From Trichocoleus sp. (GTDB lineage Bacteria; Cyanobacteriota; Cyanobacteriia; Elainellales; Elainellaceae): DNA of 64,000 bases. This document shows positions 26,513 through 28,179 of the stretch, one piece after another (position 1 is the stretch's first letter; every line of letters starts with the position of its first letter). The stretch covers positions 62,001-126,000 of the forward strand of contig DATNQD010000006.1 in NCBI GenBank assembly GCA_036702865.1, in the 5' to 3' direction. The position numbers and the translations under genes were made by a program. The notes beneath the pieces are model-generated. The model saw only the letters and a program-made list of their open reading frames with translations, was not told the origin of the DNA and made no database searches.

Positions 26513-26719
26513 TCAAACGTTAGTTACTGTCTCCGCAGCCTCACTATCATTTACAACCGACTTTGATGATCTCGAGCGATCGACAGAAACCCACTCCGAA
26601 TAGGGTTCGCCATCAAAAGGCTGCACACCCACTTCTGGATAATGATTTTTTCCAAAGAATTGAGAAATACCTTCGGCAAGATAGCGCACTGCATTACCGA
26701 ATGACTGGAAAATATTCAT
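26513..26719 (-). CDS. Small conserved-looking cyanobacterial protein
   Basis: This is 68 residues from ATG 26719, chosen because TGAGGT lies about eight bases upstream; an in-frame ATG at 26767 lacks such a site. It starts MNIFQSFGNAVRYLAEGI, an amphipathic helix, then FFGKNHYPEVGVQPFDG and a polar, acidic tail. The FGNAVRYL and YP-x-x-GVQPF-x-G pattern resembles small proteins I have seen in several cyanobacteria, but I cannot name a family. It has no membrane segment. It may be an assembly or regulatory factor; this is a guess. Confidence 0.6.
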   Translation of the reverse strand: MNIFQSFGNAVRYLAEGISQFFGKNHYPEVGVQPFDGEPYSEWVSVDRSRSSKSVVNDSEAAETVTNV

Positions 26720-27337
26720 AACATTGACCTCAAAATAAGTGTCGTTATCTTCAAATCTGCCAAACAAGAAAGCAATCCAATGTTCCCCAACAGATAGAAG
26801 AATGCAGCACCCGATAACAGTGACATCTTATTGATTCACGCATGGCGATAAAGGGGCAACAAACCAATCAAAATGAGCCAAGGAAATGTAGCGAAGGAGA
26901 GAATTTTGTAGCAATGAGGTGAATAATGGCTCTCAAAAAATGGGGAATCGAAAGAGAATGATTCGAGTTGGGCTTTTTTATTTGCCTATACCAAGATCAT
27001 ACGAGAGATTCGATAAAATGCTGATTCATTCGCCACCATTCTTTACACAGGCTTTTGATAAGATAAGTCAACTTTAAGTTGCAATTTTTTGAGTAGTTTT
27101 AAGCAGTTTGATAGCAGAGAGATAGCAGTTCATCAGCGATAAAACCACCCTTACTCATCTCTATTTCTTTCGATCGCCCAGGCTTGATGGAGCAAAAACC
27201 TTGACGAAACGCAGATGCATTATTGTGCTACTGAGCTTTCAATCTGCTTGATATTTCTGTACCCACAAACTTATTTTTTTAGTGCAATCCTCTCTACCCA
27301 AAGGTAGAGGTATGCTACCTACCCCGACCAGTAGGAT
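26720..27337. other. AT-rich intergenic region
   Basis: These 620 bases contain no convincing reading frame. Notable pieces are the palindrome CAACTTTAAGTTG followed by CAATTTTTT (27068-27089), which may be a weak terminator, and a hairpin CTCTACC-CAAA-GGTAGAG (27292-27309) just before the promoter listed next. Confidence 0.4.
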
Positions 27338-27343
27338 TATAAT
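27338..27343 (+). promoter_or_regulatory. Consensus -10 box TATAAT
   Basis: A perfect TATAAT lies at 27338-27343, with transcription expected to start near 27350. No consensus -35 is seen. Instead, a perfect 7-bp hairpin (27292-27309) and a related CTACC repeat (27315-27322) occupy the -50 to -20 region, which could be an operator. Confidence 0.45.
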
Positions 27344-27349
27344 CACTGG

Positions 27350-27411
27350 AGAACAAAACCTGAAAGGCATTTGCGTACAGATAGGCAGTCCCTAGGGGCT
27401 GCTTTTTTATT
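27350..27411 (+). ncRNA. Candidate small RNA or leader ending in a terminator
   Basis: About 60 bases run from the predicted start after TATAAT to a strong intrinsic terminator. They contain no start codon with a ribosome-binding site. The region could be a free-standing small RNA, or the attenuated leader of the lysozyme-like gene 80 bases on. I do not recognise a known RNA family (it is not Yfr1 by motif). The inferred 5' end is uncertain by several bases. Confidence 0.35.
27385..27410 (+). terminator. Rho-independent terminator
   Basis: GCAGTCCC (27385-27392) and GGGGCTGC (27395-27402) form a compact hairpin with one G-U pair, followed by six T residues. Confidence 0.8.
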
Positions 27412-27489
27412 GGTTGTCCTGGCAATTGGCTATCCAATCAAACCTTGGGCTAGGATAAAACTCGTTAAGCATACTGAGTGCTGTAGGCT

Positions 27490-28179
27490 GTGGCTTTAGA
27501 TCCTTCCCCCTCTCCAGTTCCGACCGTTCGATCGCGTCCTGGAGGCCGACTGCGTCCTCTCATTGCAGGCATAATTGCATTAGGGATGGTTAGCATAGTC
27601 TGGCAATTTACGCAGTTTTCCAGGCGATCGAGCTTCAGCCCATCCTGGGACAGAGATTTAGCACCATTAGTCATGCAAGGCGGCGATCCTTACATTCGTG
27701 CCTTGATGCGAACTATCTCTGCCAGCGAGTCCAACAGTTCTCAGCCTTATTCGATCCTCTACGGCGGCGATCACTTTCAAGATTTGAGCCAGCACCCCGA
27801 TCGCTGTGTGCCGATCGTGACAGGGATTAACGAAGGGGACTGTACGACCGCTGCCGGACGCTATCAGTTCATTGCGAGTACCTGGGAAGAGAAAGCAGCT
27901 TTCTACCATCCCCAGCCATCGAATTTTTTCTTTTGGCATCGCTATAGCTTCGAGCCAGAATATCAAGATCAAGTAGTTTATCGCTGGCTGAATGATCCCC
28001 AAGCTTGGGGGGTTGATATTGCAGCGCTTCTGCGAGAAGGCAAAATTCAGGAAGTGCTCCGAATTCTCTCACCCACCTGGACAAGCCTGGGAGATGGTAT
28101 CGAATCTAATGATATGACTGAGCTGCTGCCGCAAATTTATCAGGAGTTGTTGCAACAAGAGCTAGAAAATCGGAAGTAG
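27490..28179 (+). CDS. Membrane-anchored lambda-lysozyme-like (GH104-type) protein
   Basis: This 229-residue protein starts at a GTG. A transmembrane anchor spans about 22-40 (LRPLIAGIIALGMVSIVWQF) after a Pro/Arg-rich N-terminus. The rest resembles the lambda R endolysin family: ALMRTISASES with the putative catalytic Glu80, PYSILYGG, DLSQHP and AAGRYQF (121-127) followed by STWEE. Such enzymes are lytic transglycosylases that cut peptidoglycan. A bacterial membrane anchor instead of a phage context suggests a domesticated wall-remodelling enzyme. No holin, portal or integrase gene is adjacent. The C-terminal half is Trp-rich and helical. Confidence 0.75.
   Translation: MALDPSPSPVPTVRSRPGGRLRPLIAGIIALGMVSIVWQFTQFSRRSSFSPSWDRDLAPLVMQGGDPYIRALMRTISASESNSSQPYSILYGGDHFQDLSQHPDRCVPIVTGINEGDCTTAAGRYQFIASTWEEKAAFYHPQPSNFFFWHRYSFEPEYQDQVVYRWLNDPQAWGVDIAALLREGKIQEVLRILSPTWTSLGDGIESNDMTELLPQIYQELLQQELENRK

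Follow-up and report, generated by a model that had tools for sequence, protein, structure and literature searches.

Stand-alone small RNAs (sRNAs) are a well-known kind of bacterial gene, and in cyanobacteria few of them have both a known regulator and a known function, most of these coming from a handful of model strains. Yfr1, for instance, carries a central CTCCTCAC motif and, on the side of the regulators, RpaB binds the HLR1 site, made of direct repeats, and NtcA a GTA-N8-TAC site. PsrR1 (SyR1), of 131 nt, binds the psaL, psaJ, chlN and cpcA mRNAs and works with RpaB, and IsaR1, an iron-stress sRNA of Synechocystis with 68 nt, is linked to photosynthetic proteins (both in the available portion of PMC6202907); NsiR4 is described as a nitrogen-controlled sRNA (in an excerpt of PMC9196836). 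Regarding photosystem I itself, PsaB3 seems to be expressed constitutively in the cases examined, its importance being still to be clarified (available portion of PMC10694217), and which conditions favour one PsaB isoform over another had yet to be established according to the excerpt of PMC4582080.

The locus described here lies in a window (the whole stretch of DNA that was analysed, 64 kb long) for which a sequence-only reading had suggested a small RNA, either free or acting as the attenuated leader of a lysozyme-like gene, behind a possible operator. In our view it is likely that this locus (27292-27408), from a filamentous cyanobacterium, is a stand-alone sRNA gene, driven from an operator and giving a base-pairing RNA of ~60 nt, whose regulator would be common to psaB3. 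The sRNA has a sharply defined operator and its link to psaB3 is the part worth following, since an operator mark common to both would provide a handle on when PsaB3 is used and make that question testable.

Architecture of the predicted transcription unit

The palindrome with its repeated CTACC, the TATAAT box and the hairpin with six T residues are all found where they had been placed (Table 1), and the 60-base unit agrees with the transcript predicted from this anatomy. The centre of the palindrome falls ~49 nt 5' of the presumed start and, because the -35 box is missing, the promoter does not figure in the list of a two-hexamer promoter scan. As motifs, the promoter, the terminator and the palindrome are no commoner than chance: there are 4 promoter-like sites in the region against 5.2 in shuffles, 4 terminator-like sites against 5.1, and 4 perfect 7-bp palindromes with a 4-nt spacer against ~3.9 expected in 64 kb. 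The folding energy of 27346-27412 is ordinary as well (z -0.81, with 40 of 200 shuffles folding equally well). It is conservation that lifts the unit above chance.

Table 1. Features of the locus, in window coordinates.
Feature	Position	Strand	Description
Operator-like palindrome CTCTACC-CAAA-GGTAGAG	27292..27309	.	Perfect 7-bp inverted repeat; arms 27292-27298 and 27303-27309 (100% complementary), 4-nt spacer
CTACC, present twice	27294-27298 and 27315-27319
-10 box TATAAT	27338..27343	+	Exact match, without a -35 hexamer
48-letter core	27344..27391	+	Promoter end, 5' domain and left terminator arm; identical in three species
Predicted sRNA, ~60 nt	27350..27408	+	Limits predicted from the -10 box (start) and the T run (end)
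Intrinsic terminator	27383..27408	+	9-bp stem (27383-27391/27396-27404), 4-nt loop, six T (27403-27408)
Lysozyme-like gene	27490-28179	+	Weak matches to lysozyme structures

Conservation among relatives

The genome of the window (G000) is cyanobacterial, judging by its gene content and its relatives. Its family, hereafter f1, was searched by DNA and by covariance model in 36 genomes, and a class-wide search covered 388 genomes. In a DNA search of 60 relatives the region was matched in G005 and G023, and these two and G000 are the only genomes with the full-length element among the 36 of f1 and the 388 of the class. G005 and G023 form one genus, sister to that of the window, and by NusB identity they are the genomes nearest to G000 (84% over the protein of G023, 78% for the next genome). 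The comparison with relatives, proposed beforehand as a check, bore the unit out: the core is identical at 48 of 48 letters across the three genomes, while stretches 100-200 letters away from it align in G005 and G023 at an identity of 0.46-0.54, and ~0.5 is the level of unrelated DNA. A functionless arrangement of palindrome, -10 box and hairpin brought together by chance would agree with the motif counts given above, and its probability is nevertheless negligible, the core having been retained between species whose nearby intergenic DNA no longer aligns.

The remaining parts are kept to different degrees. The 20 letters containing the palindrome show an identity of 0.70-0.75 in the comparison of the three genomes, with 14 of the 14 palindrome letters retained in G005 and 13 in G023, and the counterpart of the -10 box, TATAAA in G005 and TATAGA in G023, is found at nearly the same place after one gap. 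The terminator loop differs among the three and the stem is retained, one of its pairs changing from G-U to A-U. In all of them the 5' end, GAGAACAAAAC, is predicted to be unpaired. Could such conservation be that of a short peptide gene? A GGAG sequence, which looks like a ribosome-binding site, stands at the 5' end and is followed by CTG or TTG codons that might be translated, but the core has no ATG or GTG, all its letters are conserved, including third codon positions (with the frame judged by eye), and the sequence 3' of it differs among the three species, which makes a peptide gene highly improbable.

Weak matches of the model R1 occur in 62 of the 388 class genomes at E values up to 0.05, and most of those inspected have the terminator alone in common with the window. 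Another five (L069, L076, L086, L093 and L094) agree better on the 5' side and were rejected by eye, as they fall within or beside coding sequence or are devoid of promoter and T run. A second intergenic unit of G000 (L022, G000:C74:2852-2872) has a similar GGCAGTCC...GGGGGCTGC terminator with six T residues and is possibly a further sRNA or a gene end.

A probable free gene in changing neighbourhoods

In G000 the neighbours of the element are carB and the lysozyme-like gene, and in G005 and G023 it stands directly 3' of nusB. The nusB of G000 is on another contig, without the element and followed by a gene that we take to be ftsY-like. The lysozyme-like gene, for its part, has orthologues in 32 of the 36 f1 genomes, located on another contig than the sRNA in G005 and ~1.03 Mb away from it in G023; its label comes from weak matches to the solved chains 3d3d and 1am7 (E ~0.001, residues 81-134), with no Pfam match at 0.001. 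Viral contigs searched with the lysozyme-like protein yielded no relative, and blastn against phage records gave no match. An 84-aa ORF (26513-26767, minus strand) with no Pfam match, lying in the long interval that separates carB from the sRNA, may encode a small conserved protein.

This arrangement bears directly on the two alternatives that had been left standing. A role in the control of the lysozyme-like gene, as its leader or attenuator with a hairpin that ends transcription except when some signal permits read-through, fits the shared strand and the short distance (the first possible start codon of the gene is 81 nt past the T run), but the same element precedes other genes in G005 and G023, with the lysozyme-like orthologue elsewhere, and the predicted folds contain no second, competing hairpin; such a role is thus very unlikely. 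Since the neighbouring genes differ between species, the element is better explained as a free sRNA gene, as was also suggested: G005 and G023 have kept both the transcript and the palindrome in an entirely different gene neighbourhood, which likewise favours the proposal that the palindrome is an operator. With a promoter and a terminator of its own (both predicted from the DNA) and a sequence that is retained while its neighbours change, the locus behaves as a mobile, self-contained transcription unit.

A probable operator in common with psaB3

The palindrome is conserved apart from the transcript and 5' of its start, so that, if it acts at all, it acts as DNA, and it is probably an operator. 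In the window it is the sole match to its own pattern at up to 2 mismatches (0.11 expected). Allowing at most 1 mismatch in the 14 letters, G000 and G023 each have 3 occurrences of the operator and G005 has 6, and the reversed control pattern is found in none of these genomes. Lying 3' of one of the G000 operators (a perfect match) and of one of the G005 operators there is a stand-alone psaB, which carries the defining feature of PsaB3, a Gln inserted at the FX motif. In seven f1 genomes the stand-alone copies share the ...EQSFYL sequence, and the copies adjacent to psaA are of another type; in G000 the stand-alone gene (L100/L163/L215) is on contig C17, from ~129477 onward, and the psaA-psaB pair on contig C87.

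For these seven genomes, the best value of the 14-letter score in the 700 letters upstream of psaB3 was 14 in G000, 13 in G005, 11 in G023, 12 in G008, 11 in G010, 9 in G030 and 9 in G016, i.e., an operator (score of at least 11) precedes psaB3 in five of the seven. Upstream of ordinary psaB copies the score is 8-10, and random 700-letter stretches reach at least 11 in 64 of 1500 cases and at least 12 in 5 of 1500. In the five psaB3 genes with a score of at least 11, a -10-like element appears ~33-37 letters past the palindrome centre, about as in the sRNA promoter, this spacing having been read by eye and the -10 boxes of psaB3 being weak. The simplest reading of these sequences is that one regulator may serve the sRNA and psaB3 in the f1 clade. 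In G189, the single genome of a second family, f16, with a PsaB3-type copy, the best score is 10.

Other candidates were set aside. The operator matches L098 and L104-L108 in G005 and G023 are not taken as members of the regulon because about one site per genome is expected at one mismatch (an estimate). One of them, L107 (G005:C52:82532-82549), is a one-mismatch operator between a HlyD-type efflux gene and a gene that we take to be MysA-like (MAA synthase); as a single case, it is possibly due to chance. The psaB of G009:C493, tried as a stand-alone copy, proved to be an ordinary one adjoining psaA. Given the presence of a second psaB, a link to FaRLiP was considered and dropped: the solved chains that come closest are those of ordinary PsaB, the chains 6pnj, 6kmx and 7s3d, which we assume to be far-red ones, score lower, and the FaRLiP literature searched mentions neither a motif nor an sRNA. 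The searched literature on PsaB3 together with a promoter or an sRNA holds nothing on the sRNA of the window.

A wider group in a second family

Two of the R1 matches, L072 and L075, led by the terminator, pointed to family f16, in which an sRNA-like element is often found 3' of a gene presumed to be purN and before a permease gene that we take to be livH-like. The elements L218-L225 and L229-L246 are highly conserved, and often lie ~65-90 nt before this permease gene. A second model, R2, trained on three sequences of f1 and four of f16, matched 35 of the 388 class genomes at E values up to 0.01 (27 of f16, 4 of f1 and 4 of family f24), a count in which the f1 genome G025 is weak (E 0.009), the f24 matches are weak and five matches have no locus; every genome with a match has just one. 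The family alignment comprises 29 sequences (3 f1 and 26 f16), leaving out L247 (f24, a mere terminator match) and second and reverse-strand matches.

Within this alignment, TTGAGAAGCT is invariant in all 26 f16 rows, the terminator loop of f16 is ACCGGGTAG in the rows listed, and the palindrome centre occupies the same column in most of the 29 rows, ~33-36 nt before a -10-like element in the f16 rows listed. A palindrome score of at least 6 is reached by 22 of the 29 sequences, compared with 419 of 2000 shuffles. In the terminator stem, 261 of 261 cells pair and two pairs are changed on both sides, such changes amounting to 6 cells against 0.9 in shuffles in an alignment that was fitted to the structure. 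Searches of Rfam with four f16 loci gave no relevant match, and no PsaB3 was found in four f16 genomes having the sRNA.

Are the RNAs of f1 and f16 then one family? They agree in the operator, in its spacing to the -10 box and in the terminator stem, and they differ in the 5' domain. We give slightly less than even weight to their being unrelated sRNAs under the same regulator and with terminators of a common type, since the two 5' domains yield no convincing alignment and the R1 scores of the f16 loci come mostly from the terminator; the three shared elements argue against it, as does the single R2 match in each matched genome, although R2 scores are not decisive about a common family because sequences of f1 and f16 alike went into the model.

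Working model

What is observed are the parts, their conservation, their independence of neighbouring genes, and an operator and spacing common to psaB3. On this basis, a DNA-binding regulator, probably a dimer, would bind the palindrome, and it would probably be an activator, given the missing -35 box and a binding site with its centre near -49. Once bound, it would drive transcription from the -10 box, and the resulting RNA of ~60 nt would end at the terminator hairpin. Its 5' part, kept letter for letter and with about the first ten letters predicted unpaired, would pair with mRNAs in trans; strict conservation together with an unpaired 5' end fits an sRNA that acts by base pairing, and an operator-controlled RNA of this type is the most likely kind judging from the sequence. 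The same regulator would also control psaB3, and the sRNA may therefore act in the same response, probably photosynthetic acclimation.

No pairing stood out with nine leaders (psaA in G000 alone, psaB1 and psaB3 in the three species each, the lysozyme-like gene and carB), and the promoters of the 29 loci show no match beyond chance to the consensus patterns of NtcA, HLR1, LexA, the LysR-type TTA-N-TAA or Pho. More tentatively, and with rather low confidence, it might be proposed that a new sRNA family, present in at least two filamentous families, makes up one regulon with psaB3 under a single regulator and adjusts mRNAs, having exchanged its 5' domain. If so, the sRNA would be made simultaneously with the rebuilding of photosystem I with PsaB3, other mRNAs being adjusted, and a whole 5' targeting domain would have been exchanged between lineages with the operator, promoter and terminator kept.

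Comparison with known small RNAs

The sRNA of the window appears to be new, IsaR1, NsiR4 and the Trichodesmium sRNAs having been compared by description only, and it may have been described earlier under another name. Rfam 15 (4227 families) gives no match in the window at gathering thresholds, the best below them being sbrA (20 bits against 45); the letters of the core are absent from the literature searched, and that on conserved sRNAs of Oscillatoriales holds nothing on this sRNA.

With Yfr1 and Yfr2 it shares the character of a short, conserved, stand-alone cyanobacterial sRNA with an intrinsic terminator, and the Yfr1 motif CTCCTCAC is absent from its core. Two terminator-led matches in other genomes (L006 in G017:C179 and L010 in G002:C1) carry a CTCCTCA-type motif, which we take to resemble that of Yfr1, and are probably Yfr1 homologues. 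The NtcA site GTA-N8-TAC occurs in 1 of the 29 promoters, not that of the window, and HLR1 in none of the 29 in its strict form and in 2 as half sites, so that neither the NtcA control of NsiR4 nor the RpaB control of PsrR1 is recognized. As far as the excerpt of PMC9196836 describes it, NsiR4 resembles the present RNA in being a short sRNA with a dedicated regulator. PsrR1, at 131 nt, differs from it in length (~60 nt here) and, like it, is intergenic, stands free and has a connection to photosystem I; IsaR1, compared by description only, belongs to the same size class and has a similar link to photosynthetic proteins (both according to the available portion of PMC6202907).
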